A stretch of DNA of 64,000 bases. Origin: Anaerocolumna cellulosilytica. GTDB taxonomy: Bacteria; Bacillota; Clostridia; Lachnospirales; Lachnospiraceae. Below the pieces are notes generated by a model that was given only the letters and a program-made list of their open reading frames with translations, was not told where the DNA came from and did not search any database. The position numbers were made by a program, and so were the translations under genes. The stretch lies in contig NZ_AP023367.1 of NCBI RefSeq assembly GCF_014218335.1, positions 2,605,501 through 2,669,500 of the forward strand, in the 5' to 3' direction. Below, in pieces: positions 1,480-64,000 of the stretch (positions within the stretch are counted from its first letter, which is position 1; each line of letters opens with the position of its first letter).

Positions 1480-1544
1480 GAAAGGAAGCCGCGTTTGTGG
1501 CTGTAACACATCAGCATAAGGTGTGTTATCCAATGAATATTATT
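1480..1544 (+). promoter_or_regulatory. Start-codon-proximal two-hairpin RNA element, copy 1 (ttcA-like gene)
   Basis: GAAAGGA at 1480-1486 is followed at once by hairpin 1 (AGCCGC 1487-1492 / GTGGCT 1497-1502, loop GTTT) and hairpin 2 (TAACACA 1504-1510 / TGTGTTA 1522-1528). This is the short-loop form, without the loop-to-upstream pairing seen in other copies. There is no recognisable Shine-Dalgarno between hairpin 2 and the ATG at 1545. The structure is read directly from the sequence; the function is inferred. Confidence 0.75.
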
Positions 1545-2396
1545 ATGGAAAAGCATATTGAGATAGAGAGAAGCCTTATAAAAAGGTTTCGCAAAGAAAT
1601 ATGGCGTAAGTTTATTACAGCAGTAAATGAGTATCAATTAATTAAAGAAGGCGATAAAATTGCCGTCTGTATATCCGGTGGTAAAGATTCCATGTTACTT
1701 GCAAAATGTATGCAGGAGCTTCAACGACACGGAAAATTTAAATTTGAATTAGTCTTTATGGTTATGGATCCTGGATACAATCCATATAATAGACAAATCA
1801 TCATTGATAACGCAAAATACCTAAATATTCCTATTCATATATTTGAGACGGATATTTTTGATATTGTGGCAGATATAGAAGATTCACCCTGCTATTTATG
1901 TGCCAGAATGCGAAGAGGTTATTTATATAAGCATGCACAAGAATTAGGATGCAACAAAATTGCCTTAGGTCATCACTTTGACGATGTGATTGAAACTATC
2001 TTAATGAGTATGTTATATAGTGGACAAATGAAAGGTATGATGCCAAAACTTCACAGCACCAATTATAAAGGAATGGAGTTAATCAGACCGTTATATATGG
2101 TCAAGGAAGCTGACATTTTAGCTTGGAAAAAATACAATAACCTTCAGTTTATCCAGTGTGCTTGCCGTTTGACAGAAAACTGTATGTTAGGAGATGCAGG
2201 TATGGGGTCGAAACGCCAGGAAATGAAAGAACTTATTAAAAAGTTCAGACAGACAAGCTCTATTATTGATATGAATATTTTTAGAAGTGTTCATAATGTT
2301 AATTTGGATACAATGATTGGATATCAAAAAAAGCAAGTGACACATAGCTTTTTAGAAGATTATGATGAAGAAGACGGTATAACAGAAGAGGAATAG
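1545..2396 (+). CDS. TtcA-like tRNA 2-thiolation protein (PP-loop ATPase)
   Basis: An N-type ATP pyrophosphatase of about 283 residues. The PP-loop SGGKDSM is near residue 41. CYLCARMRRG holds a Cys-x-x-Cys pair, and CACRLTENC supplies further cysteines, as in TtcA enzymes that bind an Fe-S cluster and thiolate cytidine 32 of tRNA. The longest frame starts at GTG 1497, but that codon lies inside the stem of hairpin 1, so I prefer ATG 1545 (MEKHIEIE). ATG 1533 is an alternative, and neither has a clear local Shine-Dalgarno. It lies between a cysteine desulfurase and queA, which suggests a tRNA-modification group. The exact target nucleoside is not certain. Confidence 0.82.
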   Translation: MEKHIEIERSLIKRFRKEIWRKFITAVNEYQLIKEGDKIAVCISGGKDSMLLAKCMQELQRHGKFKFELVFMVMDPGYNPYNRQIIIDNAKYLNIPIHIFETDIFDIVADIEDSPCYLCARMRRGYLYKHAQELGCNKIALGHHFDDVIETILMSMLYSGQMKGMMPKLHSTNYKGMELIRPLYMVKEADILAWKKYNNLQFIQCACRLTENCMLGDAGMGSKRQEMKELIKKFRQTSSIIDMNIFRSVHNVNLDTMIGYQKKQVTHSFLEDYDEEDGITEEE

Positions 2397-2447
2397 ATTT
2401 TCTAATTTGTGATGCTGTATGAATTGCATAGCATCCTATCACGAAGG

Positions 2448-2559
2448 TTGTAAGAAAGTATAGTAATAGAGAAAGGAAGCCACATAATGATTCTTTCAAT
2501 TAGTTCTATTTGTGGCAATATCGCAGGCAGCAATCTTGCGATATGCAATAGGTATAAAG
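2448..2559 (+). promoter_or_regulatory. Start-codon-proximal RNA element, copy 2 (queA)
   Basis: GAAAGGA lies at 2471-2477. Hairpin 1 is GCCACA 2479-2484 / TGTGGC 2511-2516 and hairpin 2 is ATATCGCA 2518-2525 / TGCGATAT 2537-2544. The loop segment TTCTTTCAA (2491-2499) can pair with TTGTAAGAA (2448-2456) with one central T-T mismatch, giving a pseudoknot across the first Shine-Dalgarno. A weak second site (AGG) precedes the ATG at 2560. Confidence 0.8.
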
Positions 2560-3585
2560 ATGAATAAAGAAGATTTTTACTTTGATTTACCGGAGGAATT
2601 AATAGCACAAGATCCACTGGAAGACAGATCCAGTTCAAGACTTCTAGTGCTTGATAAAGAATCAGGCCAAACCAGCCATAAAATATTTAAAGATATTGTT
2701 CAATACTTAAAATCCGGTGATTGCCTTGTAATAAACAATACAAAGGTTATTCCTGCCAGATTAATTGGTGAGAAGGAAGGAACTGGTGCAAAGGTTGAAT
2801 TATTACTGTTAAAACGCAGAGAGGGTGATGTATGGGAAGCTCTTGTAAAACCTGGTAAAAAAGCTAAGCCTGGTACTAAAATCAGCTTCGGGGATGGCAT
2901 ACTTACCTGCGAAATACTGGAAATAGTTGACGAAGGAAACCGTATGGTTCAGTTTAACTATGAAGGTATTTTTGAGGAAATCCTGGACAGATTGGGGCAG
3001 ATGCCACTGCCTCCGTATATTACCCATCAATTACAGGATAAGAACAGATACCAGACGGTCTATGCCAAACACGAAGGTTCCGCAGCGGCTCCCACAGCAG
3101 GACTTCATTTTACTAAAGAACTCATAGATGAGCTAACGCAAAAAGGGGTTATAATTGCCAATGTTACACTTCACGTTGGACTAGGTACATTTCGCCCGGT
3201 TAAAGTGGAGAATATCTTAGAGCATCATATGCATTCAGAGTTTTATCAAATCGAAGCGGAAGAGGCAGAAAAAATAAATGGGACGAAAGAAAAGGGAGGC
3301 AGGGTAATCTGTGTTGGCACTACAAGTTGCAGAACCGTAGAATCAGCAGCGGACGAAAACGGTCTTGTAAAAGCTGGCAGCGGTAATACCGCGATTTTTA
3401 TTTATCCTGGTTATAAATTTAAAGTTCTAGATGCTTTAATAACTAATTTTCATCTGCCGGAGTCCACTCTGATTATGCTGGTATCGGCTCTTGCCGGAAG
3501 AGAACCTGTACTAAAAGCATATGAAGAAGCAGTAAAAGAGAGATACAGGTTTTTCAGTTTCGGAGATGCTATGTTCATACAATAA
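2560..3585 (+). CDS. queA: S-adenosylmethionine:tRNA ribosyltransferase-isomerase
   Basis: A 341-residue protein, the normal QueA length. It transfers the ribosyl part of S-adenosylmethionine to 7-aminomethyl-7-deazaguanine in tRNA, giving epoxyqueuosine. Recognisable features are [16 protein letters not shown] at the N-terminus, [24 protein letters not shown] near residue 170, [10 protein letters not shown], and a C-terminal NFHLPESTL. The longest frame starts at GTG 2512 inside a hairpin. ATG 2560 ([10 protein letters not shown]) fits the family start and follows the RNA element. No other queuosine gene (tgt, queC-F) is visible within the window. Confidence 0.96.
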
Positions 3586-3624
3586 TACCTTTAACTTAAT
3601 ATACAAACAAAGGTTTGCTTAAAG

Positions 3625-3673: not shown

Positions 3674-3809
3674 ATTATTTGCAACTGAAAAGGTGATTGT
3701 AATTTAAAGTATTACTTTCCTAGTAAAATGTTGCTCAGGAGTTTTAGCTCAAATTATATAATAAACCTTGTTCTTATCCGTCTGTTTAAATATAAACAAT
3801 ATGCTTATA

Positions 3810-5102
3810 TCAACCTTGTATTAAGCCATTTAAATCGGCATAAAAGTTTGGATAAGAAATATTTACGCATTCTGCCCCAAGTATCTCTGTATCTCCTTCC
3901 GACAGAAGACCGGCTATGGCAAAGGACATGGCTATACGGTGGTCAGCTTTACTTTCAATAGAAGTACCTTTTAGTCCGTTGCCCCCTTCGATAATCATAC
4001 CATCCTCTGTAGCTGTAACGTTTGCACCCATCAAGGTAAGGTTCTGAACCATTACATCGATACGGTTAGATTCTTTTACTTTTAACTCTGCGGCATCCTT
4101 TATGATAGTAGTACCTTTTGCAAAACATGCCATAACTGCAATAACAGGAATTTCATCAATAAGAGTAGGAATTAATTCACCACCAACAATCGTTCCTTTA
4201 AGAGAGGTACTGCGGACAATAATGTCTGCAATTGCTTCTGTGTCAGTATTCCGAATATTATCAAGAGAAATATCTGCTCCCATCTGTTCACAAACTTTTA
4301 TAATACCATCTCTGGTCGGATTAATACCGACGTTTTTTATAACCAGTTCGGAATTTGGGACCAGCAGACCGGCGGCAATAAAGTAAGCTGCAGAGGAGAT
4401 ATCGCCGGGAACCTCAATTTTATCACCCTTTAATTTAGGCTCAGGTAATATACTTGCTGTTGTATTGTTGATGATAATTTCCGCACCAAGCCGTTTCAGC
4501 ATGAGTTCCGTATGGTTTCTGGATACATAGGGTTCTGTAACAGAAGTCGGACGGTCTGCATATAAACCGGCGAGAAGAATGGCAGACTTTATTTGAGCTG
4601 AAGCAACAGGTGATTCATAGAGGATTCCTTTTAAAGAAGTTTCTTTTCCACGGATTTTCAGGGGTGCCCTTCCATCTCCCGTAAGGCTTTTGATATCAGC
4701 CTCCATCTGAGATAAAGGAGCAATAACTCTATCCATAGGCCTTCTTTGTATAGATTCATCCCCTGTCATAACAGAATCAAAGGACTGACCAGAAAGAATC
4801 CCTGACATAAGTCTCATAGTAGTGCCACTGTTACCCACATCTAAAACACCGGAAGGTCTTTTTAGACCTCTTAACCCCTTCCCCCTGACAATTACTTTAT
4901 TAGAAGCAGTCTGATTTACAATTTCAATTCCCATATCGCTAAAACAGGAGATGGTTGAGAGGCAGTCAGCACCCTGAAGGAAATGGGTAATTTCTGTAAT
5001 TCCTTCTGACAATGAGCCAAACATGACGGCTCGGTGGGATATAGACTTATCACCAGGAACTTCAAGTTCGCCTTTTAATTGCTTTGCATTTTTTATTACC
5101 AT
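3810..5102 (-). CDS. aroA: 3-phosphoshikimate 1-carboxyvinyltransferase (EPSP synthase)
   Basis: A 430-residue enzyme that joins shikimate 3-phosphate and phosphoenolpyruvate in the shikimate pathway. Family hallmarks are GDKSISHR near residue 17, NSGTTMRLMSG near 90 (phosphoenolpyruvate site), RRPMDRV, and KVKESNRID near 335. I chose ATG 5102 (MVIKNAKQLKG) because the longer GTG start at 5123 lies within hairpin 1 of the upstream RNA element, and GGGATGG sits just before 5102. It is the last gene of the aroF-tyrA-aroA operon, 69 bases after the tyrA stop. No convincing terminator was found after it. Confidence 0.96.
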   Translation of the reverse strand: MVIKNAKQLKGELEVPGDKSISHRAVMFGSLSEGITEITHFLQGADCLSTISCFSDMGIEIVNQTASNKVIVRGKGLRGLKRPSGVLDVGNSGTTMRLMSGILSGQSFDSVMTGDESIQRRPMDRVIAPLSQMEADIKSLTGDGRAPLKIRGKETSLKGILYESPVASAQIKSAILLAGLYADRPTSVTEPYVSRNHTELMLKRLGAEIIINNTTASILPEPKLKGDKIEVPGDISSAAYFIAAGLLVPNSELVIKNVGINPTRDGIIKVCEQMGADISLDNIRNTDTEAIADIIVRSTSLKGTIVGGELIPTLIDEIPVIAVMACFAKGTTIIKDAAELKVKESNRIDVMVQNLTLMGANVTATEDGMIIEGGNGLKGTSIESKADHRIAMSFAIAGLLSEGDTEILGAECVNISYPNFYADLNGLIQG

Positions 5103-5181
5103 GTTATACCATCCCATTGCCACAATAAAAGTGTGAAGGTATTAATATGTGGCATTCCTTTCTTTTGTTAATTATCTTTCA
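5103..5181 (-). promoter_or_regulatory. Start-codon-proximal RNA element, copy 3 (aroA)
   Basis: On the minus strand, GAAAGGA (5162-5156) precedes hairpin 1, GCCACA (5153-5148) / TGTGGC (5124-5119). Hairpin 2 is missing here; GGGATGG follows directly and acts as a local Shine-Dalgarno for ATG 5102. Pairing of the loop to the upstream strand is weak (about five bases near 5176-5181, inside the tyrA 3' end). This copy is reduced relative to the others. Confidence 0.65.
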
Positions 5182-6278
5182 TAAACTGTGTAGCGATATT
5201 TTTTTAAAAGCAGAGAGGCTTTATTGCAGGCCCCCTCTTCATAAAACTCAATTCGCAGAACACCCTGTTCAAACTCCCTGTTATGAATGATGCCTATATT
5301 TTTTATGCTGATAAGATTAGTGGCTAACAGTGTTGCTACCGTAGCAATAGCTCCGGCTTCATCAATAACATCCAGATAAATTTCATAAGACCTATTGATT
5401 AGACCGGTGACTTTCACCGGAAGAGAATCTCTGTAATCTCCGGCAGTCTCAAAGAATTCAAACAAATAAGAGGCATCTTGGCTTGACAATGCATCTGAAA
5501 CATCTTGAAGGGAGGTAATATACAGCTTAAGAAATTGTTTAATGCTGACCGTATTGGTCAGACATATATTCTGCCACATAACCGGTGATGAAGAAGCGAT
5601 TCTTGTAATATCCTTAAAACCACCTGCTGCAAGGGTTTTCATCTTTTCTTCAGGATCGTCGGAGTCCTTAACCATATTAACCAAAGCAGCGGCAATAATA
5701 TGAGGTACGTGACTTATAGCAGCTGTTATATCGTCATGTTCACCTGCATTTATTATGACCGGAATGGCACTCATGGATACTACCAGACTGCGTAAAAACT
5801 CTAATCTATCAGGAGGCGTTAAGTCAGTAGGAGAGAGGATATAATATGCATTTTCAAGTAAACGACTGGAAGAACTTTCATAACCTGTTTTTTCAGAACC
5901 TGCCATCGGGTGACCACCAATAAAATTTCTGTCAAGGTTCAGTTCCAGCGCGGCTTTATGTATATTACCCTTTACACTCCCAACATCCGTTATGATACAA
6001 TCTGATTTAATGATGCTTTTAAGTTGGCTAAGATAAGATATATTTGATAAGACCGGTGCACATAAAAAGATGATATCACAAACAGAAAAATCCGTTAAAT
6101 CTTCTGTTATTATATCCAGTATCCGGTCCTCTTTTGCCCCTATCAAACCGATTGATGGTTTTTTCTTACTATAGTGATAGGCTAATAAAGTGTTCTTTGG
6201 ATTTAGCTCTTTCAGGGCACGTGCAATAGAGCCGCCTATTAATCCAAAGCCAATAAAGCCAACGGTTATGCTATCCAT
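5172..6278 (-). CDS. tyrA: Prephenate dehydrogenase with C-terminal ACT-like domain
   Basis: A 368-residue enzyme of tyrosine biosynthesis that oxidatively decarboxylates prephenate with NAD. The Rossmann motif GFGLIGGS is at residues 10-17, GGHPMAGSEKTGY near 140 is the family's catalytic region, and SHVPHIIAAALV follows. The last 70 or so residues (LDVIDEAGAIATVATLL onward) look like an ACT domain, which usually mediates feedback inhibition by tyrosine. It is the middle gene between aroF and aroA. No ordinary Shine-Dalgarno precedes ATG 6278; the only strong one lies upstream of the hairpin at 6346-6354. Confidence 0.94.
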   Translation of the reverse strand: MDSITVGFIGFGLIGGSIARALKELNPKNTLLAYHYSKKKPSIGLIGAKEDRILDIITEDLTDFSVCDIIFLCAPVLSNISYLSQLKSIIKSDCIITDVGSVKGNIHKAALELNLDRNFIGGHPMAGSEKTGYESSSSRLLENAYYILSPTDLTPPDRLEFLRSLVVSMSAIPVIINAGEHDDITAAISHVPHIIAAALVNMVKDSDDPEEKMKTLAAGGFKDITRIASSSPVMWQNICLTNTVSIKQFLKLYITSLQDVSDALSSQDASYLFEFFETAGDYRDSLPVKVTGLINRSYEIYLDVIDEAGAIATVATLLATNLISIKNIGIIHNREFEQGVLRIEFYEEGACNKASLLLKKYRYTVYER

Positions 6279-6372
6279 AATACAATGATTGCCACATACA
6301 AAATATTGAAATACGTATCATTGGTTGAAAGAATGGTAATGTGGCATCCTCCCTGTTATTGATTTTCCTTCA
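6279..6372 (-). promoter_or_regulatory. Start-codon-proximal RNA element, copy 4 (tyrA)
   Basis: On the minus strand, AGGGAGGAT (6354-6346) is followed by hairpin 1, GCCACA (6345-6340) / TGTGGC (6296-6291). Loop TTCTTTCA (6333-6326) pairs with upstream TGAAGGAA (6372-6365) with one G-U wobble. A second loop segment CAATGAT (6323-6317) can pair with ATCATTG (6289-6283) just before the start codon, replacing hairpin 2. There is no local Shine-Dalgarno at ATG 6278. Confidence 0.75.
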
Positions 6373-6430
6373 TCCTAACATGATTGGTCTGACCGAGTAT
6401 GATACATAATACTCCTTAAAAAGGTGGCTA

Positions 6431-7444
6431 CTAGAATTTTCTACCCATCAATTCTGCAAATGGTCTAAGTTCCTGGCACAGTTCTTCGAATTGAGGAAAA
6501 GTCAGAGACTGAGGGCCATCGGATAAAGCAATTGCAGGATTGGGATGCGTTTCTATCATTAAGCCATCCGCACCTGCTGCAACGGCACATCTAGCTAAAG
6601 GGTTCACATATTCTCTTACACCGGTAGCATGGCTTGGGTCAACAATAATCGGCAGATGACTTTTGGATTTTATTACAGGAACAGCACTGATGTCTAGAGT
6701 GTTCCTTGTTGCCGTTTCAAAGGTACGTATACCTCGTTCGCATAATACCACGTTAGGATTTCCTTCTGCAATAATGTATTCAGCAGCATTCAGCCATTCA
6801 TCTATGGTAGCAGATAATCCGCGTTTTAACAAGACGGGAAGACCGGTTTTTCCTGCTTCTTTTAAAAGATAAAAATTCTGCATATTTCTTGCTCCGATTT
6901 GAAGCATGTCAACATATTTTACTGCTGATTCAATGGCAGCAAGGCTGGTTACTTCACAAACGACAGCTAATCCTGTTTCTTCTCTGGCTTCCTTCATGTA
7001 CTTTAAACCTTCTTCCTCCAATCCCTGGAATGCATAAGGTGAAGTTCTTGGCTTATAAGCACCACCTCTTAAAATCTGAGCACCGGATTTTTTGATAGCA
7101 TGTGCTGTATCAAAAAGCTGTTCTCTGCTTTCAACGGCACAGGGTCCGGACATAATTACAAGATTACCGCCTCCAATCGATACATTGCCAACCTTTACTA
7201 TAGAGGGCTCAGGATGAAACTTTTTATTTGCTAATTTATAAGATTCGGTAACGGGAACGATACGTTCTACTTCCGGAGCAATTTCAAGATTCTGATCGTG
7301 AAGTTTTGTTTTATCACCGACAACGCCAATAATAGTTACTTCCTTACCATCTGAAATATGGGCGCTCAACCCCTTATCTTCAATAATTCTAATAATATTT
7401 TTTATGGATTCTTTTTTCGCATTTTGTTTCATAACAATTATCAT
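6431..7444 (-). CDS. aroF: 3-deoxy-7-phosphoheptulonate synthase (DAHP synthase, type I-beta)
   Basis: A 337-residue enzyme for the first step of the shikimate pathway, condensing phosphoenolpyruvate and erythrose 4-phosphate. An N-terminal ferredoxin-like domain ([11 protein letters not shown] ... [15 protein letters not shown]) precedes the barrel, in which [30 protein letters not shown] and DPSHATG are clear. The extended open frame to 7483 runs through the palindromic hairpins, so I set the start at ATG 7444, with AGGG seven bases upstream. It is the first gene of the operon, behind a good promoter at 7586-7614. Confidence 0.96.
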
Positions 7445-7515
7445 TTTGTACCCTGAGTGTACACAAGCTTTGGGTGTACACACACTGCAACCTTATCGTG
7501 TTGCAGTATCCTTTC
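7445..7515 (-). promoter_or_regulatory. Start-codon-proximal two-hairpin RNA element, copy 5 (aroF)
   Basis: Minus strand: GAAAGGA (7515-7509), hairpin 1 ACTGCAAC (7507-7500) / GTTGCAGT (7491-7484), hairpin 2 GTGTACAC (7481-7474) / GTGTACAC (7464-7457), then CAGGGTAC and ATG 7444. The stem sequences differ completely from GCCACA/TGTGGC yet pair perfectly, which supports selection on structure. Hairpin 1 is the short-loop form. Confidence 0.75.
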
Positions 7516-7585
7516 TTTAATTTTCTATACCTATAGAAACATACCTGACAGTATATACTGGCATATGTATTTTTTACTTATACTA

Positions 7586-7614
7586 ATTCTACTCCATTCA
7601 CAAATAAATGTCAA
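7586..7614 (-). promoter_or_regulatory. Sigma-A-type promoter of the aroF-tyrA-aroA operon
   Basis: Minus strand TTGACA (7614-7609), a 17-base spacer, TAGAAT (7591-7586). This is one mismatch from consensus over both boxes and lies about 140 bases upstream of the aroF start. Confidence 0.8.
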
Positions 7615-7615
7615 T

Positions 7616-7924
7616 ACTGCAAAACATTAAAGCGTAACAGTTTAAAGTGTAGCGGTTTAAAGTGAAAAATACTTTCGGAAAAATAGTAGGAATTAATAGA
7701 ATAATCAGGAAGAATGTATGAAATCATAGAAATATAACATATATATGCTGCAAAGATTCAATATTATTATGATGGACAAATTAAATCTGTTAATTATAGA
7801 TAATTAAGTTGTAATATCAGACATTATTTAGTAAAATATATACATAGGTATATTACGGTATTATATCCATAATGTAGAAATGCCCTAATGTATTTACAAA
7901 AATATTATTCATGGAGGAAAAAGT
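7616..7924. other. AT-rich intergenic region between aroF and the EF-G paralogue
   Basis: This divergent spacer holds no credible open frame. Near 7630-7665 the sequence AGTTTAAAGTG / GGTTTAAAGTG occurs as a short direct repeat. The stretch 7700-7900 is very AT-rich and must hold the promoter of the plus-strand EF-G-like gene, but I could not choose one convincing box pair. Confidence 0.5.
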
Positions 7925-12710: not shown

Positions 12711-12737
12711 GATTCATTCGAAAATTAGAATGGAAAG

Positions 12738-12839
12738 GTTGAAAGAAAATATATGATAGAAAGGATGCCATGAACGGATTCTTTCAACTTGTTAGTGGCA
12801 GTATCGCAAGCAGACTTGCGATAGCAGCGGGAGCTAAAC
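12738..12839 (+). promoter_or_regulatory. Start-codon-proximal RNA element, copy 6 (pyruvyltransferase gene)
   Basis: This is the clearest pseudoknot copy. GTTGAAAGAA (12738-12747) is fully complementary to loop segment TTCTTTCAAC (12779-12788). Between them lie GAAAGGA (12759-12765) and the 5' strand of hairpin 1, TGCCA 12766-12770 / TGGCA 12796-12800. Hairpin 2 is TATCGCAAG 12802-12810 / CTTGCGATA 12815-12823. GGGAG and ATG 12840 follow. Confidence 0.85.
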
Positions 12840-13991
12840 ATGAAAGTCGGAATTATAACCATATCCTCAGCTCATAATTATGGTTGCATGCTGCAAGCCT
12901 GGGGCTTGCAGGAATATGTTAAAAAACTGGGTTATGAAGTTGATATAATTAATCTCAGACTAGATTGCATAGATAACCTTTATAAACCACTTAATTTATA
13001 TAAAGGTTTAGTGAAAGCTAAAAGATTTCGTAAACTACGTGCTTTTCTGTGGCAAAATCTAAAAACAAAAGGAATCCGTGCCAAACGTAAATATTTAAAA
13101 TTTGAAGCATTTATTGCAAAGCAACTGCATACGACTACCTGCTATCGAAGTTATCAGGAATTAGTTGATGCAAAAGTTGGAGATGCCTATGATATATTAA
13201 TAACCGGCAGTGACCAGGTTTGGAATGGAGCTATAACCGGCGGTTTAAATCGTGCATTTTTCTTAGATTTCACGAATAAACCGGTTAGAAAGATATCGTT
13301 TGCCTCTAGTGTTGGTAAGACTGTGTTAAAAGATTACGAGAAAGATTTCTTTCAACACTATTTAGAGAATTTTGATGCAATCGCAGTAAGAGAAGAATCC
13401 GCAAAAGAAATGCTATCAACGCTAACGAATAAATCGATTGATGTAGTTGTAGATCCTACCTTGTTATTGGAGGGCTCTGATTTTGATAACTTAAAGAAGA
13501 GACCAAACTATAACAGAGGCTATATATTAGTTCATGTCATCAATGCAGATTCTATGGTTCGTCCTATTGCAGAGAAATTATCAAAACTTACAGGGCTTCC
13601 GGTTATTCATAATAGGTCGGACAAGCGTTATTCCAATGAATTAGGGAGATTTGACGATGCTGGCGTTGAAGAGTTCTTAGGTCTGATAGAACAGGCTGCT
13701 TACGTTGTAACGAATTCTTTTCATGCAACTGTATTTGCAATCATTTACAGGCGTAAGTTCTTCACCATACCACACGAAAAATACCCCGAAAGAATGGTAC
13801 ATTTGTTAAGTATGTTGGAACTAAGCAACTATTTAGTCAAAGATGTGCAAGATATTCCCACTAATCTAAATGGTTTAGACTATCACTATGACAAGGTGTA
13901 TGAATTATTGGATATCCAAAGAAAACATTCGCAGAATATTCTAAGGAATGAATTGGAGAACGAAAGCACATACTCTACAATATACAAATAA
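12840..13991 (+). CDS. Polysaccharide pyruvyl transferase family protein
   Basis: A 383-residue protein of the WcaK/CsaB-like pyruvyltransferase family. It opens KVGIITISSAHNYGCMLQAW, has ITGSDQVWNG near residue 120, FASSVGK near 158, a second-domain segment VDPTLLLEG, and TNSFHATVFAIIYRRKFF near 300. Such enzymes put ketal-linked pyruvate from phosphoenolpyruvate on cell-surface sugars, though many members of this subgroup are uncharacterised. It lies 129 bases after the TagF/GT4 fusion and probably works on the same polymer. A local GGGAG lies seven bases from the ATG, after the RNA element. A strong terminator follows. Confidence 0.88.
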   Translation: MKVGIITISSAHNYGCMLQAWGLQEYVKKLGYEVDIINLRLDCIDNLYKPLNLYKGLVKAKRFRKLRAFLWQNLKTKGIRAKRKYLKFEAFIAKQLHTTTCYRSYQELVDAKVGDAYDILITGSDQVWNGAITGGLNRAFFLDFTNKPVRKISFASSVGKTVLKDYEKDFFQHYLENFDAIAVREESAKEMLSTLTNKSIDVVVDPTLLLEGSDFDNLKKRPNYNRGYILVHVINADSMVRPIAEKLSKLTGLPVIHNRSDKRYSNELGRFDDAGVEEFLGLIEQAAYVVTNSFHATVFAIIYRRKFFTIPHEKYPERMVHLLSMLELSNYLVKDVQDIPTNLNGLDYHYDKVYELLDIQRKHSQNILRNELENESTYSTIYK

Positions 13992-16252: not shown

Positions 16253-16306
16253 AAATATATAAATAATATCACCAGTGTATTAAGGAATAGTATCTTATTA
16301 GTAATA

Positions 16307-16408
16307 TTGGAAAGAAAATATAGAAGAAAGGGATGCCACATGTGGATTCTTACAACCAGTTTCTGTGGCAATAACGCACGATTGTTGTTTGCGTTATGGT
16401 AGGATATC
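16307..16408 (+). promoter_or_regulatory. Start-codon-proximal RNA element, copy 7 (P-II gene)
   Basis: GAAAGGGA lies at 16326-16333. Hairpin 1 is GCCACA 16335-16340 / TGTGGC 16364-16369 and hairpin 2 is TAACGCA 16372-16378 / TGCGTTA 16390-16396. Loop TTCTTACAA (16347-16355) can pair with upstream TTGGAAAGAA (16307-16316) with a small internal loop. A local AGGA lies five bases before ATG 16409. Confidence 0.8.
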
Positions 16409-17116
16409 ATGGAAGGTATAAAACCTAAAATATTAAAGAAAAAGCTATTGGTTGCTATTATTGATTCTATACAAGAAAAACAGCTTACAGACATATATCT
16501 AGAAAATCACCTGCCTCTTAATGTTGTTACGCATGGTCATGGTACTGCAAGTTCAGAGATGCTTGATTATCTGGGTTTGGGAGAAACAAAGAAAAGTCTG
16601 ACAATTAGCGTGATAAGTGAAGATAAGATATCATTTATATTAGGACTGCTGGCTCAAAAACTACATTTTGAACAACCAGGAAAAGGTGTAGCTTTTACCT
16701 TGCCGATATCTTGTATAAGTAGTATTATTACCTCAATGGATGTGGAGAATATGGCAAACCCAAGTGCCGGAAGTGTATGTGAGGAGAAATCAATGAAAAA
16801 AGAAAGAAAGCATGAACTAATTTTAATTATTGTAAATCAAGGTTATGCAGACCAGACTATGGAAGCTGCTAAAAAAGCCGGTGCAAATGGTGGAACGGTC
16901 GTACACGCCCGTGGCCTTGGCGACGCAGAAGCGGCTAAATTCTTAGAAATCACTGTACAGCCTGAAAAGGAACTAATATTAATATTAACAAATAGAGAAG
17001 ATAAAATGAAGATTATGGAAAGTGTAAATTTAGAGGTTGGTCTTACCACCCAAGGAAAAGGTATTATGTTCTCCTTACCTGTTGATGAAACAGTAGGGAT
17101 AGGAGCAGACATGTAA
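16409..17116 (+). CDS. Tandem P-II-like regulatory protein
   Basis: 235 residues forming two P-II-type units joined by a linker near residues 112-130. Unit 1 contains VVTHGHGTASSEMLDYLGL and ends EQPGKGVAFTLPIS. Unit 2 begins after MKKERKHELILIIVNQGYA and contains GANGGTVVHARGLG and TTQGKGIMFSLPV. Both keep the turn-and-strand layout of P-II trimers and the GKG before the last strand, while the long uridylylated T-loop of GlnB is not obvious. P-II proteins sense nucleotides or 2-oxoglutarate and bind membrane transporters. The partner here is very probably the DUF1538 protein, whose gene ends 156 bases upstream. The ligand is unknown. Confidence 0.85.
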   Translation: MEGIKPKILKKKLLVAIIDSIQEKQLTDIYLENHLPLNVVTHGHGTASSEMLDYLGLGETKKSLTISVISEDKISFILGLLAQKLHFEQPGKGVAFTLPISCISSIITSMDVENMANPSAGSVCEEKSMKKERKHELILIIVNQGYADQTMEAAKKAGANGGTVVHARGLGDAEAAKFLEITVQPEKELILILTNREDKMKIMESVNLEVGLTTQGKGIMFSLPVDETVGIGADM

Positions 17117-20334: not shown

Positions 20335-21216
20335 CTAGTGGATATCTATAGTATATTCAGAAGAAAAGATTTTGCCAGCGTCTAGAACATTTCCCCATTC
20401 TCGTTCTTCTAGGCTTCCATTAAAATGACTGCTGTCACAGCGTCCATACCAGGGTTCAATACAGATGAAAGGAGCATTTTTACCGGCTGGTGACCATAGA
20501 CCGAATAAAGGCGCTTCAAAAGAAACCGTAATATAGGGTTTCTTATTTGGTAAGGTTAAAGATATCTTATGACTCTGATTGTTTTCGAATATAAGAGCAT
20601 CCTTATCAAACATGCCCTGACGTATCGATAACATACCGTTTTCTGTATTTAGTATCTCCGGCTGCTCCTTAACGGCCAGACCTTCCTGATTTATAAGCAG
20701 ATAATTAAGTGGATTTAAGGAATCAAATTGCAGAAAGTAATCTGTTTGATTATCCTCGTCTCTTAAGGGACAAAGAAAAGCCGGATGAGCACCAATAGAA
20801 AAATACATGGTGTCTGTTCCAGAGTTTTTTACTTTCCACAAAACAGTAATCTGCCGGTTACGTAACCGATATCCAATATCCAGTGTAAAATTGAAGGGAT
20901 ACACTTTTTTGGTAGCCTCCGTAGCTGTAAGTTGGAACCATATCTCTGTTTCAGTTACTTCAGTTAATTTAAATTCCATATCTCTGGCAAAACCATGTTG
21001 CGACATGTGATAACTTTTGTTTTTATAAATATAACTCTGATTTTTTAAGCTTCCTACAATAGGAAAGAGAACCGGTGAGTTTCTCTTCCAATAAAGAGGA
21101 TTTCCGCTCCATAAATATTCAGTTGAATTATCAACCGTCTGTATGGATTTTAGTTCAGCACCAAAAGTATCAATACAGAGACACAATTCATTATTTTTTA
21201 AGTAGTGAATTGACAT
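20335..21216 (-). CDS. Aldose 1-epimerase family protein
   Basis: A 293-residue beta-sandwich protein of the galactose-mutarotase superfamily. It starts MSIHYLKNNELCLCIDTFGAEL and has HGFARDMEF near residue 77, GAHPAFLCPL (with a probable catalytic His) near 154, and a C-terminal APFICIEPWYGRCD with the expected acidic residue. This subgroup (LacX/YeaD-like) is thought to interconvert anomers of sugars or sugar phosphates; the substrate is not known. The open frame extends to 21261 through the RNA element, so ATG 21216, with GGGTG five bases before it, is preferred. Confidence 0.88.
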   Translation of the reverse strand: MSIHYLKNNELCLCIDTFGAELKSIQTVDNSTEYLWSGNPLYWKRNSPVLFPIVGSLKNQSYIYKNKSYHMSQHGFARDMEFKLTEVTETEIWFQLTATEATKKVYPFNFTLDIGYRLRNRQITVLWKVKNSGTDTMYFSIGAHPAFLCPLRDEDNQTDYFLQFDSLNPLNYLLINQEGLAVKEQPEILNTENGMLSIRQGMFDKDALIFENNQSHKISLTLPNKKPYITVSFEAPLFGLWSPAGKNAPFICIEPWYGRCDSSHFNGSLEEREWGNVLDAGKIFSSEYTIDIH

Positions 21217-21321
21217 AATAACACCCATTGACACATCCGCTAACAGATGTATCACTGCCACAATTATAAAATATGAAAATCATTACGTGGCATTCCTTTC
21301 TTCTATTTATTCTTTTATAAT
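21217..21321 (-). promoter_or_regulatory. Start-codon-proximal RNA element, copy 8 (aldose epimerase gene)
   Basis: Minus strand: GAAAGGA (21300-21294), hairpin 1 GCCAC (21291-21287) / GTGGC (21261-21257), hairpin 2 TGATACATC (21254-21246) / GATGTGTCA (21237-21229). Upstream ATTATAAAA (21321-21313) is fully complementary to loop segment TTTTATAAT (21271-21263). This pairing has a sequence unrelated to the UUCUUUCA type of other copies. GGGTG precedes ATG 21216. Confidence 0.82.
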
Positions 21322-21467
21322 GTCTATGCAGTCCTGCTTTCTATAAGCCGGTAGACTGCCCATAAATGAATTATCCTAAGAATACTTTGTTCACTTATTA
21401 CGCATATTGTAACATGTGATACTCATATTTACTATATAAAATTTGTAAGCTAAAAAATACCAATGTA

Positions 21468-22094: not shown

Positions 22095-22610
22095 ATGAAC
22101 AATATTATACTGATTGGTTTTATGGGCAGTGGAAAGACAAGCATAGGTACCTTATTGGCAAGAAAGCTTTCCTATGATTTTATGGATACAGATCAGTTAA
22201 TCGAAAAAAGAGCAGGTAAAAGCATTAAGGAAATCTTTGCATTAGATGGCGAAGAGCACTTTCGTAAAATGGAGACAGATGAAATCCTTTCTATGCAGGA
22301 CTATTTACAGCATACGGTTCTGTCAGTTGGCGGCGGTCTCCCCATACGGACAGGAAATGCAGAGATATTAAGGAAATTAGGCACAGTAGTTTTTTTGAAG
22401 GCTCATATAGATACCCTAAAAGCAAGGTTAGCCGGAGATACCAAAAGACCCTTGTTATCCGGTGAGGAATGGGATAAGAAAGTAACTCTACTATTGCAAA
22501 GTAGAGAACCAGTATATGAAAATGCTGCTCATCTTATAATTACTACTGATTCGAAATGCTTTGAAGAAATACTTGATGAGATACTAGAGAAAATAGTAGA
22601 ACCTATTTAA
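22095..22610 (+). CDS. aroK: Shikimate kinase
   Basis: A 171-residue P-loop kinase that phosphorylates shikimate at the 3-hydroxyl. Walker A is GFMGSGKTS (residues 8-16), followed by the shikimate-binding DTDQLIEKRAGKSIKEIF, FRKMET, and GGGLPIR near 81. TKRPLL belongs to the lid region. It shares the aromatic pathway with aroQ next door and with aroF and aroA in the other cluster. A CGGAGAA site precedes the ATG. Confidence 0.95.
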   Translation: MNNIILIGFMGSGKTSIGTLLARKLSYDFMDTDQLIEKRAGKSIKEIFALDGEEHFRKMETDEILSMQDYLQHTVLSVGGGLPIRTGNAEILRKLGTVVFLKAHIDTLKARLAGDTKRPLLSGEEWDKKVTLLLQSREPVYENAAHLIITTDSKCFEEILDEILEKIVEPI

Positions 22611-22615
22611 AAAAT

Positions 22616-22705
22616 ATAGAAAGGACGCCACATAACGATTATTATAGCCTTTTCTATTTGTGGCAGTATCTCAGGCTAGCCTGTGATATGTATAAGGGTA
22701 TAGAT
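22616..22705 (+). promoter_or_regulatory. Start-codon-proximal RNA element, copy 9 (aroQ)
   Basis: GAAAGGA at 22619-22625, hairpin 1 GCCACA 22627-22632 / TGTGGC 22659-22664, and hairpin 2 TATCTCAGG 22667-22675 / CCTGTGATA 22680-22688 with one mismatch. Loop CCTTTTCTAT (22648-22657) is complementary, with one bulge, to ATAGAAAGG (22616-22624). Here the loop would pair with the first Shine-Dalgarno itself. AAGGG precedes ATG 22706. Confidence 0.8.
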
Positions 22706-23140
22706 ATGAAAATATTAGTTATAAACGGGCCTAATATTAATTTTCTGGGTATCCGTGAGAAGAGCATATACGGTAATCAAGATTTTAAGTATCTCCTTGA
22801 AATTCTGGAGAAGAAGGCAACAGAAGAAGAAATTACTATTGACACCTATCAAAGTAATGTAGAGGGATATATTATAGACAGGCTTCAAGAGGCATATTCT
22901 GACGGAACGCAGGGAATAATTATTAACCCGGGAGCATTTACCCATTATAGCTACGCCATACGTGATGCATTGGCTTCTCTTGATATACCTAAAATCGAAG
23001 TACATATCTCTAATGTACATAAGAGAGAAGAATTCAGGCATATATCTGTAACTGCACCTGTGTGTACCGGGCAAATTATTGGACTGGGATTGCAAGGATA
23101 TTTACTTGCAGTAGATGCACTAAAACAAATAGTAGCGTAG
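22706..23140 (+). CDS. aroQ: 3-dehydroquinate dehydratase, type II
   Basis: A 144-residue enzyme, the standard type II size, that dehydrates 3-dehydroquinate. It opens KILVINGPNINFLGIRE with the catalytic tyrosine in SIYGNQ, and has NPGAFTHYSYAIRDAL near residue 75 and EVHISNVHKREEFRH near 99 with the catalytic histidine. The open frame reaches back to TTG 22658 inside the RNA element, but ATG 22706 matches the family start. It lies 95 bases downstream of aroK. Confidence 0.96.
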   Translation: MKILVINGPNINFLGIREKSIYGNQDFKYLLEILEKKATEEEITIDTYQSNVEGYIIDRLQEAYSDGTQGIIINPGAFTHYSYAIRDALASLDIPKIEVHISNVHKREEFRHISVTAPVCTGQIIGLGLQGYLLAVDALKQIVA

Positions 23141-28080: not shown

Positions 28081-28109
28081 GATAGTGTTCAACTTAATAT
28101 GATTTTAGG

Positions 28110-28290: not shown

Positions 28291-28344
28291 AAGCTTCTTC
28301 GGGCCTAAGAAGTAATACAAGCATTCTCTTTAAAATGCTTTATT

Positions 28345-31603: not shown

Positions 31604-31726
31604 AGAAGAACACAGTACTTTAAACGAATTAACTTGTACTGTATATTAACATATGGGATTGTTTTTTAACTGGAAAACATAATTTATACAGTATCTAAAG
31701 CAAGGTTGGTTATACAAGGGAATTCT

Positions 31727-31836
31727 GTGAAAGAAAATTTTAAGAGAAGAAAGGATGCCACAATTGATTCTTTCACGCTTTGTAATTGTGGCAGTAACAC
31801 ATCGCTTCACGGATGTGTTACTCAATAGGTAATAGT
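31727..31836 (+). promoter_or_regulatory. Start-codon-proximal RNA element, copy 10 (pepT)
   Basis: GTGAAAGAA (31727-31735) is fully complementary to loop segment TTCTTTCAC (31768-31776). GAAAGGA lies at 31749-31755. Hairpin 1 is GCCACAATT 31757-31765 / AATTGTGGC 31784-31792 and hairpin 2 is GTAACACATC 31794-31803 / GATGTGTTAC 31812-31821. A weak AGG precedes ATG 31837. This is the copy with the strongest hairpins. Confidence 0.85.
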
Positions 31837-33060
31837 ATGCAAAAAGTGATAGAAAGATTTTTAAAGTATGTCAAAGTGGATACGCAGTCCTTAGATGATA
31901 TGGAACAAGTACCCAGCACAGAAAAACAAAAGAATTTGGCAGCAATTCTAGTAGAAGAGTTAATAGAAATCGGTGCGGCAGATGTTAAAATGGATGACCA
32001 TTGCTATGTCTATGCCACCATTCCTGCCACTACCGATAAAAAGCTGCCTGTACTTGGCTTAATTGCACACATGGACACCTCCAATGCTATCAGCGGTGAG
32101 AATGTGAAACCTCAGATTATTCAAAACTATGACGGGAAATCGATTGTTCTCAATAAAGAATTAAGCATCTTCTTAGACCCGTCAGAACATCCCTCTCTTA
32201 TAAACTATATAGGGCAGGATTTAATTGTAACAGATGGTACGACCCTATTAGGAGCGGATGATAAAGCAGGTGTAGCTGAAATTATGACGCTAGCAGAGTA
32301 CTTATTGAACCATCCTGAAATTAAACATGGTACCATTAAGATTGGCTTTACACCGGACGAAGAAGTGGGAAGAGGTGTTGATTTCTTCGATGTAGAAGGT
32401 TTTGGTGCTGATTTTGCTTATACAGTTGACGGTGGCGAATTAGGTGAAATCGAATATGAGAATTTTAATGCGGCAGGCGGAAAAGTAGAGATACAAGGTA
32501 AAAGTATTCATCCCGGTTCTGCAAAGGATAAGATGTTAAATGCTCTTTTACTTGCCATGGAATTTCAGTCCATGCTTCCGGTACAGCAAAACCCTATGTA
32601 TACAGAGAATTATGAGGGCTTCTTTATGCTTTCTAATTTGGAAGGCGGTGTAGACTTCGCTAAAGCTTCTTATATCATCAGAGACCATGATAAAGTAAAA
32701 TTCGAAGAAAAGAAAGCACGTTTTCTAAAAATAGGAGATTATCTGAATGATAAATACGGGGAAGGTACCTTTACAGTTACCGTTAAAGACTCCTATTATA
32801 ATATGAAGGAAAAAATTGAACCGCATATCCATTTAATTGATAATGCCAAACTTGCCATGGAGGAACTAGGTGTAACCCCTATAGTAGTACCTATCCGTGG
32901 AGGTACTGACGGAGCCAGATTGTCTTATATGGGTCTGCCTTGCCCCAACCTTTGTACCGGCGGCCATAATTATCATGGAAGATATGAATATATTTCCATT
33001 CAGTCTATGGAGAAAGTTGTTGAGATTTTACTTAAGCTGGTTGAGTCATATTCAAAATAA
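31837..33060 (+). CDS. pepT: Peptidase T (tripeptide aminopeptidase)
   Basis: A 407-residue M20-family metallopeptidase that removes the N-terminal residue of tripeptides in the cytoplasm. LIAHMDTS near residue 78, [12 protein letters not shown] near 140, TPDEEVGRG near 174 and the C-terminal [19 protein letters not shown] and [11 protein letters not shown] supply the two-zinc site and the dimer-domain residues. The open frame extends to 31813 inside hairpin 2, so ATG 31837 is the start. It is a single-gene unit with its own promoter. Confidence 0.96.
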
Positions 33061-39556: not shown

Positions 39557-40750
39557 GAGTTCACTCATTTCATTACCTGTCCCGTTTTTAGAAGTTAGCA
39601 AGAGGCTGCCAGTCAAGGCTGTAAAAGGAGCAACTGTAATGAGTCCGATACTTCCTACCATAGTATCAATGATTTCCGCAGATACGTATTTATAATTCAA
39701 AATATTTTGAATCGGTGTTCCTTGTGCCATAAATACCATCAAAAGGGCTATATAACCGCCGGAATACGCAAGTAAGAGAGTAGTGGTCATAGTCCCCATT
39801 GCAGCTCTGCCAACGTTCATTCCTGAGAAAAAAGCTTCTTTCCATCGAATCTCCGGTTTTTTTGATATAACCTCTATAATAGAAGAAGTAATATCAACCG
39901 ATAAATCCATAACCGCCCCGGAAGAACCTATAAAAATACTAGCCATAAAGATTTTAGTAAGATTCAAATCTTGAAAACCACTATATAACAAACTTTCTGA
40001 GTTTGGCATAATGGCACCATGAATTTGAAAAGCATTGGTAAAGATGATACCGAGAACAGCCGTTACAAGTATTCCTAAGGAAGCGCCAGACACCGCAGAC
40101 AGTGCTTTTTTATTAAAACCATAGACTAGTGAAATTGTCAAAAAGGCTAATATTATAGTTATTACCAAACCAAAATAGATAGGATTATGTCCATTAAGAT
40201 ATGCTGGAATAAGTATTTTCCAGATAAAAAGTACAGTAATTATAAAAGAAAGTAAAGCACGAAGCCCGGTTCGTCCGGCAACAAGTATTAATAGGAGAGC
40301 AAAACCAACGGCCAATAAGATTTCTTTATTAATCCGATAATGATCTATTAGATTAACAGATAGAATACTATCTTCATTATGGCTGATTACTACCAACGCT
40401 TTATCACCTTCCTTAAATATTTTGTCAGTTTCCAAAGAACCATTTAACAGATTAAATCCCTTAACCTGCCTGCCTTTAAAACGGCCATTCAATAGTTCGA
40501 CCATACAGGTCTGTTCCCCGGAGCGTACTAATCCAGTATCTATGATAGTATCATTATTGACAGTCAACACACGAGCGGAGGTTCGTTCCGTCCCTTTGTA
40601 TATAATGGCGTCTTCATAGCCGGTCGGGATTAAGATTAAAACAATTAAAACCAATAAGGAAACTAATACAGGCAGATAATACGGTAGGTTGTCTTTCCAG
40701 GCGTTTTTATCTAAAGGGGGCAGTAAGGAATTACGAAATTTAGTTAGCAT
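39554..40750 (-). CDS. YibE/F family membrane protein
   Basis: A 398-residue protein. An N-terminal membrane helix (LPVLVSLLVLIVLILIPTGY) is followed by a soluble domain of about 100 residues (VLTVNNDTIIDTG ... GDKALVVIS) and then seven or so membrane segments, the YibE/F plan. The family is common in Firmicutes; transport activity is suspected but not proven, to my knowledge. It lies 96 bases downstream of the alkaline phosphatase gene on the same strand, with an ACTCCCCT/AGGGGAGT hairpin (40791-40816) between them, so coexpression is possible. Confidence 0.88.
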   Translation of the reverse strand: MLTKFRNSLLPPLDKNAWKDNLPYYLPVLVSLLVLIVLILIPTGYEDAIIYKGTERTSARVLTVNNDTIIDTGLVRSGEQTCMVELLNGRFKGRQVKGFNLLNGSLETDKIFKEGDKALVVISHNEDSILSVNLIDHYRINKEILLAVGFALLLILVAGRTGLRALLSFIITVLFIWKILIPAYLNGHNPIYFGLVITIILAFLTISLVYGFNKKALSAVSGASLGILVTAVLGIIFTNAFQIHGAIMPNSESLLYSGFQDLNLTKIFMASIFIGSSGAVMDLSVDITSSIIEVISKKPEIRWKEAFFSGMNVGRAAMGTMTTTLLLAYSGGYIALLMVFMAQGTPIQNILNYKYVSAEIIDTMVGSIGLITVAPFTALTGSLLLTSKNGTGNEMSEL

Positions 40751-40846
40751 AGTAAGAACCCTTTCTTTATTATCAATTTTATATCAGAATACTCCCCTAA
40801 AAAAAGACAGGGGAGTGGTAAGTTGCGAAGGCATGCCTGAATACAA

Positions 40847-59319: not shown

Positions 59320-59536
59320 CACAGCCCTCTAAAGAGTTGCTCTAAAGATAACAACTCGATACAGAACCTAATTTATGCTCTTGGTTATGACGCTGTTGTG
59401 CTCCGGTTACCCGAAGTTTTTTCGACATATAACACATCCAAGTATGCGAGAGAGCATCCGCCGAATAGTTCGCTGACTCCCTACCTCGTTAACCTCTAAA
59501 CTTCATTTGACCCAATAGAGGTACATGGCGCTAATT
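59320..59536 (-). ncRNA. glmS ribozyme (glucosamine-6-phosphate riboswitch)
   Basis: On the minus strand the leader reads TTAGCGCC (59534-59527), then GGTTAACGAGGT, GGGAGTCAGCGAAC, TTCGGCGGATGCTCTCTCGC and CCGGAGCACAACAGCGTCAT. These match the conserved ribozyme segments in order. Self-cleavage is expected between A 59532 and G 59531. It lies about 100 bases upstream of the glmS ATG. The 3' boundary is approximate. Confidence 0.95.
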
Positions 59537-59680
59537 TAAACATTTCTGTTAGACAGGTTTTGGGTTAACCCGGTTTATAGTTACGATATCACAAAACCAA
59601 TATATGCTTAATCCTCCTTTCTGTTACTTTTTTACTAAGTATTTGTTTACTTACTTATGTATTTGCTTTGTGATGTTGCT

Positions 59681-62964: not shown

Positions 62965-62982
62965 TAAATAAGCTGTAAAAGT

Positions 62983-63036
62983 AAAAGCCTGTTAGCAGTT
63001 ATAAGAAAAACTTAAAACAACTAACAGGCTTTTATG
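62983..63036. terminator. Bidirectional terminator between fbp and degV
   Basis: AAAAGCCTGTTAG (62983-62995) and CTAACAGGCTTTT (63021-63033) form a perfect 13-bp stem with A- and T-tracts at the ends, suited to both converging genes. Confidence 0.92.
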
Positions 63037-63091
63037 ATTACTGGCAAACAGTAAAAATTTCAGTTTTATAAAATAAAAAATCTTCTATGCT

Positions 63092-63937
63092 TTAACCTTT
63101 CTGAAAGTAAGCAATACCACAGACTCCTGGACCAGCGTGGGTACCAACTACAATACCAATCGGACTTTCCAGTGCATCACTTAACTTTAGTGATTTATTG
63201 GCATATGTTAAAAAGGTTTCCATATTAGTCTTGGTCTTAGAATAGCCAGTGCAAATGTAATCCTCATAATCAATGGGTCCACTTTGCTCCGTAAGCGCTA
63301 CTAACTTATTATAAGCTCCTGACATACCTCTTGCTTTGGCAGCAACTCCCACCAGACCGTCCTTTACTTCTATAATAGGCTTGATATTTAATATAGTCCC
63401 AGCTAGAGCACTAACACCCGTTAAACGTCCGCCCTTTTTCAAATATTCCAGACTTTCTACCAGTGCAAACAAACGGATTCTCTGTTTTGCCTGCTCCAGT
63501 GCATCGACTAGGGCTTTGATGTCTAACCCTTTCTTAATTAAGTCTGTTGCTTTCCTTACCAGTATCTGAAGACCTATAGTAACAGTAGTACTATCAATAA
63601 TATAAATATTATCATATTCTGCCATATCTTTGGCAATTACAGCACTCTGGTAAGTTCCGCTTAATTTAGAAGACACAGTAATTACCAAAACATCGTCATT
63701 GGCTGACTTTGCCGCTTCAAAATGAGGAAGGAATTGTTCCGGCGTAAGCTGACTGGTAGTAGGCAGAGTTGCTGACTGTGCTAATTTCTGATAAAATTCA
63801 TCCGGTGACAAATCAATACCATCAGAATACTCCCCATCTGGAAATATTACCTTTAAAGGCAATATTGTTACATTTAATTCATTCGCCTGCTGCTGGCTAA
63901 GATCTGACGTAGAATCGGTTATAATTTTTATTCCCAT
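63092..63937 (-). CDS. DegV family fatty-acid-binding protein
   Basis: A 281-residue DegV/FakB-like protein. IKIITDSTSDLSQQQA at the N-terminus, TTSQLTPEQF near residue 60, VITVSSKLSGTYQSA near 85 and LKKGGRLTGVSALAG near 165 are family signatures; these residues surround a bound fatty acid. The proteins present fatty acids to a FakA kinase for phospholipid synthesis, but no fakA is visible. ATG 63937 follows a copy of the recurrent RNA element, with AAAGGG as local Shine-Dalgarno. Confidence 0.93.
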   Translation of the reverse strand: MGIKIITDSTSDLSQQQANELNVTILPLKVIFPDGEYSDGIDLSPDEFYQKLAQSATLPTTSQLTPEQFLPHFEAAKSANDDVLVITVSSKLSGTYQSAVIAKDMAEYDNIYIIDSTTVTIGLQILVRKATDLIKKGLDIKALVDALEQAKQRIRLFALVESLEYLKKGGRLTGVSALAGTILNIKPIIEVKDGLVGVAAKARGMSGAYNKLVALTEQSGPIDYEDYICTGYSKTKTNMETFLTYANKSLKLSDALESPIGIVVGTHAGPGVCGIAYFQKG

Positions 63938-64000
63938 AATTTACACCCTTTGCATACCGCAGACAATTCCGCGGTACAGCCACAAATAGAAGTAGTTGAA
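63938..64000 (-). promoter_or_regulatory. Start-codon-proximal RNA element, copy 11 (degV), cut by window end
   Basis: Minus strand: TTCTATTTGTGGC (63991-63979) is the 3' side of hairpin 1, as at queA and aroQ. Hairpin 2 is GTACCGC (63977-63971) / GCGGTAT (63960-63954), then AAAGGG and ATG 63937. The 5' strand of hairpin 1 and the first Shine-Dalgarno lie beyond the window. Confidence 0.7.

Follow-up and report, generated by a model that had tools for sequence, protein, structure and literature searches.

Introduction

Mobile elements that carry promoters, terminators or genes are known, and RNA structure at translation starts is familiar from riboswitches such as preQ1 and SAM-II, in which an H-type pseudoknot involves the Shine-Dalgarno (SD) region and which occur a few times per genome, at metabolically related genes. 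The subject of this study is an element of about 106 nucleotides (nt) that recurs in a 64,000-nt stretch of the Anaerocolumna cellulosilytica genome (contig NZ_AP023367.1, positions 2,605,501 to 2,669,500; the window, in what follows). It resembles these riboswitches in its predicted H-type pseudoknot involving the SD region, but differs from them in having at least 147 matches in one genome, at mostly unrelated genes. Judged by sequence comparison, it is probably a mobile, non-coding insertion, placed in sense orientation in the spacer between SD and start codon and taking over the translation start region.

A structured RNA at a translation start is also seen in Clostridioides difficile, where splicing of an allosteric ribozyme reportedly acts on the SD-start region. 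That ribozyme is of group I and combined with a c-di-GMP-II aptamer (PMC3649979); it is self-splicing and ligand-controlled, whereas the Anaerocolumna element is much smaller and the native SD in front of it decays. In the T4 genes 38 and 25, RNA structure shortens the effective SD-AUG spacing from 22 to 5 nt and from 27 to 11 nt, respectively (PMC3014915); structure between SD and AUG is predicted here as well, but the T4 cases are single phage genes, immobile, and the available part of that source describes no pseudoknot around the SD. The BOX, RUP and SPRITE repeats of Streptococcus pneumoniae are likewise small, present in many copies, endowed with predicted RNA structure (BOX being modular) and thought to be mobile; they are over-represented between convergent genes (PMC3049150), unlike the Anaerocolumna element, which lies at start codons, in sense orientation, with a putative ribosome-binding site. 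Miniature inverted-repeat transposable elements (MITEs) are short and non-autonomous too, and Correia elements often lie directly 5' of genes; typical of MITEs are terminal inverted repeats and target duplications, and the Correia element brings promoters with it (PMC10969869), whereas by inspection the present element shows neither inverted repeats nor clear duplications, and the signal that it would carry is translational. The open-licence literature yielded no element that inserts specifically between SD and start codon, taking the place of the ribosome-binding site; among papers on the genus Anaerocolumna, those listed deal with microbiomes.

Structure of the element

The earlier note on the window had described a structured RNA recurring directly in front of start codons, in eleven copies. 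A covariance model of the hairpins P2 and P3 only, trained on 24 copies (6 from the window) and taking in the ATG context, with some bias towards the last unit of arrays, recovers ten of them at E <= 4e-5, one being cut at the window end, and the eleventh (7429-7542, minus strand) at E 0.027, so that all eleven are borne out. A further match (40735-40798, minus strand, E 0.018) was excluded as an ordinary GAAAGGG SD with its ATG and without hairpins. The window contains 20 occurrences of GAAAGGA as such, where 10.3 would be expected, as this motif also serves as an ordinary SD. In the whole genome, a single contig of 5,430,627 bases, a strict pattern finds 22 copies (reversed control, 0) and the covariance model, among 150 scored candidates, at least 147 matches at E <= 1, nearly all directly 5' of a start codon; this agrees with the high copy number expected by the earlier note, and the covariance search that it proposed yields matches in relatives as well. 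The set inspected comprises 116 rows (118 before identical rows were removed), corresponding to 115 copies, as the copy at the window end is also present whole (L047); about 34 of the 147 matches lie outside this set.

As delimited from tandem arrays, the repeat unit consists of AGGTTGAAAGAA (P1a), AATATA..AGAAAGGA (loop L1), GCCACA (P2a), a short loop, TTCTTTCAACCT (P1b), TTTTATTT, TGTGGC (P2b), a single A and the P3 hairpin; it ends in GCAATGGGTGTAAA or GCAATGGGTATAAA, a few nt before the host ATG, with GGGUG or GGGUA just 5' of the AUG. The pairing of P1a with P1b crosses P2, which gives an H-type pseudoknot whose first loop contains AGAAAGGA. The extent given in the earlier note, which began at GAAAGGA, is too small and misses the upstream half together with the pseudoknot, whose helix is formed by the upstream AGGUUGAAAGAA and the loop of hairpin 1. 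Its two hairpins stand in part: they are present, but a GCCACA..TGTGGC hairpin in exact form with a loop of 2-12 nt is absent, the loop of hairpin 1 measuring about 23-45 nt in most copies, and the copy at 5087-5193 is without hairpin 2.

Covariation was assessed by counting the pairs changed on both sides, and is present. For P1, which lies outside the model, this applies to 7 of 12 pairs among 24 copies, to 9 of the 12 when the 116 rows from the A. cellulosilytica genome are counted (training copies included) and to 6 of the 12 among 96 copies from other records. The score for the whole structure is 0.280 in the 116 rows (shuffled mean 0.144) and 0.222 in the 96 copies (shuffled mean 0.116). 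On the sense strand, G.U exceeds A.C in all three helices, both in one set (P1 99:42, P2 36:9, P3 61:17) and in the other (49:31, 20:5 and 33:10); this suggests that selection acts on the folding of the RNA and not of the DNA, although the counts are not independent. No conserved reading frame was found in the element. It also matches no Rfam family, in line with the earlier note, which had not recognised it as a named RNA family: above the thresholds of Rfam release 15, the window contains a cobalamin riboswitch and a glmS ribozyme alone, neither at a copy; between 1300 and 33000 no match at E<=5 overlaps a copy, and nine loci with elements of this family (A) or of the related families B or C gave no match.

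Placement at start codons

An open reading frame (ORF) of at least 50 amino acids begins no more than 45 nt 3' of P3 in 108 of the 116 rows, against 25.6% of 4000 random positions, and in 103 rows this start is close to the 5' end of the frame, against 9.2%. Of the eight exceptions, four have an element of another family and then the ATG, two have further sequence or a further element, another copy and then the ATG, one is followed by an ORF of 49 codons, and one is degenerate. The end of a co-directional open frame (at least 100 codons) lies within 60 nt or overlaps in 39 of 115 copies and is 61-300 nt away in 41, with none within 300 nt in the remaining 35; many copies may therefore be operon-internal, which suits a translational element. 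The downstream genes in the window are mostly unrelated, as the earlier note had stated (queA, aroQ, pepT, aroA, DAHP synthase and others), the three aromatic-pathway genes among them being neighbours; the functionally related downstream genes of a riboswitch are not seen there. On the coding side no clear target preference is apparent: the second codon is AAA in 16 of 72 cases and in 62 of 335 controls, with 7 of the 72 being an artefact of an upstream ATGGGT.

Evidence for insertion

Three sites that hold a copy in one Anaerocolumna genome (G005) are empty in another (G003), each reading there as an ordinary SD, spacer and ATG; one of the three is clean on both flanks, and two have a diverged or changed upstream flank. 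Among 14 pepT orthologues compared by eye, the source genome has a copy, G012, G014 and G011 have diverged or truncated ones, and none is seen in the other ten, the reading for G003 covering only 51 nt upstream. Together with two insertions of the related family C (see below), these are pairs of empty and filled sites, which indicate mobility.

Where a copy is present, the SD of the host gene appears displaced to its upstream side. In 149 copies, chosen by a motif that fixes TGxAAG (168, less 19 with another P2-like motif upstream), SD-like 5-mers start 9-16 nt before the T of the TTG or GTG with which the element begins; they number 84 over these 8 positions, overlapping motifs counted, whereas a control stretch gives 1.35 per position. 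Copies also adjoin other copies, and elements of families B, C and D, in tandem arrays at start codons. In two arrays of the source genome the ATG-proximal copy scores 127.2 against 29.6, and 116.9 against 45.3, for the upstream one, as expected if new insertions enter beside the ATG, although such arrays are few and the model slightly favours the last unit. An origin of the arrays by slippage alone was rejected, since it leaves arrays of unlike units unexplained. The empty sites, tandem arrays, patchy distribution and displaced native SDs point to an inserted, mobile element that targets the SD-start codon spacer, rather than to a fixed host leader; they leave unsupported the view of the earlier note that a fixed position at start codons tells against a randomly inserted repeat. 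Two loci of genome G010 (L081, L083) hold arrays of four similar A units, some of them identical, which suggests recent amplification. Near-identical copies in Anaerocolumna sp. AGMB13025 and in Robinsoniella likewise hint at recent activity.

The putative ribosome-binding site

We take AGAAAGGA to be complementary to the 3' end that 16S rRNA usually has in Bacillota; together with the GGUG in front of the AUG it presumably matches the contiguous tail. In copies selected by the TGxAAG motif, the mean energy of pairing with this tail is -9.2 kcal/mol at L1, -6.1 at the proximal site and -5.75 at the native upstream site; element-free genes average -7.2 (-7.17), and a control stretch -3.6. When copies are ranked by model score, the native SD weakens from the best to the worst third. 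In two sets drawn mostly from other genomes it is as strong in the best third as in ordinary genes and falls from -7.45 to -4.27 and from -7.08 to -3.28, with controls at -3.42 and -3.11; in the source genome it goes from -5.38 to -3.67 (control -3.37). The energy of L1 ranges from -8.3 to -9.5 over all nine thirds. The native SD thus seems freed from selection in diverged copies while AGAAAGGA persists, so that the element most likely supplies the ribosome-binding site of the gene. The predicted geometry and the conservation fit a putative bridging of SD and AUG of the T4 gene 38 type.

Interpretation

Empty and filled sites, tandem arrays, a covarying pseudoknot and hairpin, the lack of a coding frame and a displaced, decaying native SD together lead to the insertion reading. 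After insertion, the RNA of the element would become the translation start region of the gene: the pseudoknot of P1 and P2 would display AGAAAGGA in L1, P2 and P3 would loop out and so move the remote AGAAAGGA towards the start codon, GGGUG or GGGUA directly 5' of the AUG would act as a weak proximal SD, and further insertions could later join at the same AUG. Because the element would carry its own ribosome-binding site, insertion would leave the gene unsilenced, and copies could accumulate. If this is right, the translation of many genes has been rewired, often within apparent operons; the copies would be natural, portable, structured ribosome-binding sites, in which the function of a remote or split SD is directly testable, and the question arises by what means a mobile element finds the start of translation.

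It is possible, though rather doubtful, that the element stands for a new class of mobile elements that targets translation starts, perhaps via the initiating ribosome on the mRNA, and carries a split ribosome-binding site. AGAAAGGA in the pseudoknot loop and GGUG would then be clamped by one anti-SD across the folded element, and family D, which has no L1 and a stronger, undivided SD, would be the unsplit ancestral state. The many A copies with GGUA instead of GGUG speak against such a split, as do some weak D copies (G224, -3.8 to -3.9).

Several observations weigh against insertion with replacement of the ribosome-binding site. The tails of A elements pair less well with the 16S tail than ordinary SDs do, the tail sequence used is the one usual in Bacillota, and a pattern search for the 16S 3' end found no match. 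Even looped out, AGAAAGGA would remain about 17-20 nt from the AUG, which is longer than usual. The native SD in the source genome is overall not above control (p 0.21), as would be expected if most copies are old, yet this gives no support there. Ranking copies by model score only stands in for ranking them by age; for L1 it is partly circular, in poor copies P1a may be misplaced, and one set has D-like matches from other genera in its worst third. The G.U counts are non-independent among related copies, the alignments of P2 and P3 lean towards pairing, and in P1 other mismatches outnumber G.U (173 against 99). Finally, the genome with the empty sites (G003) is 63% complete and was compared with G005 alone, and profile searches for Y1 and RVT_1 gave no mobilising enzyme.

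The alternatives differ in what they make of the conserved fold and of the native SD. A host translational regulon, with the pseudoknot as a switch responding to a metabolite, an ion, temperature or a protein and with spread copies now kept for regulation, is unlikely. It would account for the strong structural conservation, apparently at the RNA level, for a AGAAAGGA in a pseudoknot loop, likened to the SDs of some riboswitches, and for the sites in about 200 kb of two species that are 89% identical, where three of four at E<=0.01 correspond (matched by position) and the fourth lies in a non-aligning stretch; but it sits badly with mostly unrelated downstream genes, presence that differs among orthologues in one genus, the lack of an Rfam match and unlike elements arrayed before one AUG. 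An ordinary MITE, inserted at random by the transposase of an insertion sequence and left near starts by selection, would equally be small, non-coding, repeated and mobile. We consider it improbable: by inspection the ends GGTTGAAAG... and ...GGGTGTAAA are not terminal inverted repeats, no clear target duplication is seen by eye at three A and two C sites, whose spacers are AT-rich and diverged, none of the 116 rows is intergenic away from a start codon except for one degenerate copy (the model includes the ATG context), and a Y1 transposase was not found in the copy-rich genomes G006, G008, G010, G011 and G012.

The native SD bears on two further proposals. In one, the TTG/GTG-AAA-GAA head that follows it would start a regulatory upstream ORF; among 168 copies, all of them chosen for their TGxAAG, 156 have TTG or GTG as the head, and an SD precedes the head at the spacing of a start codon, but the length from head to P2 varies modulo 3 (84/53/31), the encoded peptides are not conserved and the native SD decays, so that a leader peptide is very improbable and a conserved upstream peptide was rejected. 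In the other, the element would be spliced out of the RNA, or bridged by the 30S subunit, and the native SD would serve the AUG again. That SD is indeed placed where removal restores normal spacing; such a mechanism would, however, not tolerate its decay towards background in diverged copies, and about 106 nt is far below the size of known self-splicing introns. This decay, which speaks for an element-borne start region, makes removal or bypass hardly credible.

Candidate mobilising enzymes

At E<=1e-10, PF01797 (Y1) was not found in the single-contig genomes G006, G008 and G010, each with at least 34 copies, and PF00078 (RVT_1) was not found in the single-contig genomes G006, G009 and G014 (at least 34, 25 and at least 34 copies); the source genome itself has four matches to each. 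Neither the Y1 transposase of an IS200/IS605-derived or REP/RAYT element, nor the reverse transcriptase of a group II intron or other retroelement, is thus present throughout the copy-rich genomes, and neither can be a general requirement, unless families use different movers; as general movers both are unsupported. On contigs C3-C5 of G012 there are 24 RVT_1 matches, several with equal scores, which are perhaps group II introns; none was found in its near relative G014. Carriage by phage was rejected: of three pattern matches in viral contigs, two look like chance in coding-like, GC-rich sequence and one is a real copy (L211).

Related families and distribution

All 15 Anaerocolumna genomes match at E <= 0.001, 11 of them with at least 34 copies and two (G003 and G004) with only 3 and 4, as do 2 of 83 other relatives; at E <= 1e-4, matches occur in 17 of 397 genomes of the family, 3 of them Anaerocolumna. 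Occurrence in other Lachnospiraceae is patchy. Robinsoniella peoriensis accounts for many of the pattern matches among the matches listed; those labelled Herbinix and Pelosinus are single contigs of metagenome-assembled genomes and may be contamination.

Family B has a hairpin GTTGAA../..TTCAAC, then TTGATTT, a small hairpin, AGATAGGAG and the ATG; it occurs alone or arrayed with A, and its strict pattern is found three times in the source genome. Family C, of about 90 nt, has a second hairpin loop that by eye is complementary to its own 3' part; two insertions in G014, in which PF00078 was not found, separate an SD from its ATG and have no counterpart in G012, so that related families behave like A, which supports the insertion reading. 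In family D, from other genera, P1 is a plain hairpin, and L1 and P2a are absent. Its proximal SD averages -8.2 (22 sites, 3 of them followed by B, some weak) against -6.1 in A (156 sites; p 6e-4), and A may be a D element whose P1 loop has grown and taken up the SD. One locus of genome G158 (L297, 994-1382) has an array D-B-D-B-D before a single ATG. In syntenic stretches of G012 and G014 (L307-L326), small repeats away from start codons differ between the two species, for example ones with CTGAAA..AGACAC ends and short-unit tandem arrays.

Copies in the window

At its usual place, P1 is clear in four window copies and shorter in a fifth (Table 1). The copies beginning at 5087, 21201 and 22585 have only alternative possible helices instead, and those at 1447 and 7429 have none; the check covers copies 1 to 10.

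Table 1. Copies of the element in the window, with features of families B and C from other loci
Feature	Position	Strand	P1	GAAAGGA or equivalent	P2 or first hairpin	P3 or second hairpin	Start and gene	Remarks
Copy 1	1447..1560	+	none	1480-1486	1488-1492/1497-1501 (short)	1504-1512/1520-1528	ORF start 1533 or 1545; TtcA-like, under family cut-off	
Copy 2	2437..2575	+	P1a 2446-2457; P1b 2491-2501	2471-2477	2479-2484/2511-2516	2518-2527/2534-2544	ATG 2560; queA	full
Copy 3	5087..5193	-		5156-5162	5148-5153/5119-5124	none	ATG 5102 or in-frame neighbour; aroA	
Copy 4	6263..6384	-	6364-6375 region with 6323-6333 (10/11 pairs, one mismatch)	AGGGAGGA 6347-6354, replacing AGAAAGGA	6339-6345/6291-6297	none clear	ATG 6278; prephenate dehydrogenase	
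Copy 5	7429..7542	-		7509-7515	7500-7506/7485-7491 (unrelated sequence)	7474-7482/7456-7464	ATG 7444; DAHP synthase	most divergent, E 0.027
Copy 6	12728..12855	+	P1a 12736-12747; P1b 12779-12790	12759-12765	12767-12770/12796-12799	12802-12810/12815-12823	ATG 12840; weak CsaB-like pyruvyl transferase match, under cut-off	full
Copy 7	16296..16424	+	P1a 16306-16316 (imperfect); P1b 16347-16357	GAAAGGGA 16326-16333	16335-16340/16364-16369	16371-16378/16390-16397	ATG 16409; no family match	
Copy 8	21201..21331	-		21294-21300	21287-21291/21257-21261	21246-21254/21229-21237	ATG 21216; weak aldose 1-epimerase match, under cut-off	GGGTG 21222-21226
Copy 9	22585..22721	+		22619-22625	22627-22632/22659-22664	22667-22676/22679-22688	ATG 22706; aroQ	5' part overlaps upstream ORF end, 22610
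Copy 10	31716..31852	+	P1a 31727-31735; P1b 31768-31776	31749-31755	31757-31763/31786-31792	31794-31803/31812-31821	ATG 31837; pepT	full
Copy 11	63922..64000	-					before ORF 63092-63937	cut by window end; whole at G000:C1:2669422-2669557
Family B, start-codon elements	L138 about 7480-7640	+						tandem; also L230, L264, L261, L254, L085, L239
Family C, insertions	G014: L322 about 18430-18520; L320 about 830-990							

The two Rfam families whose gathering scores are exceeded in the window lie at 28090-28294 (plus strand; cobalamin riboswitch) and 59376-59543 (minus strand; glmS ribozyme).

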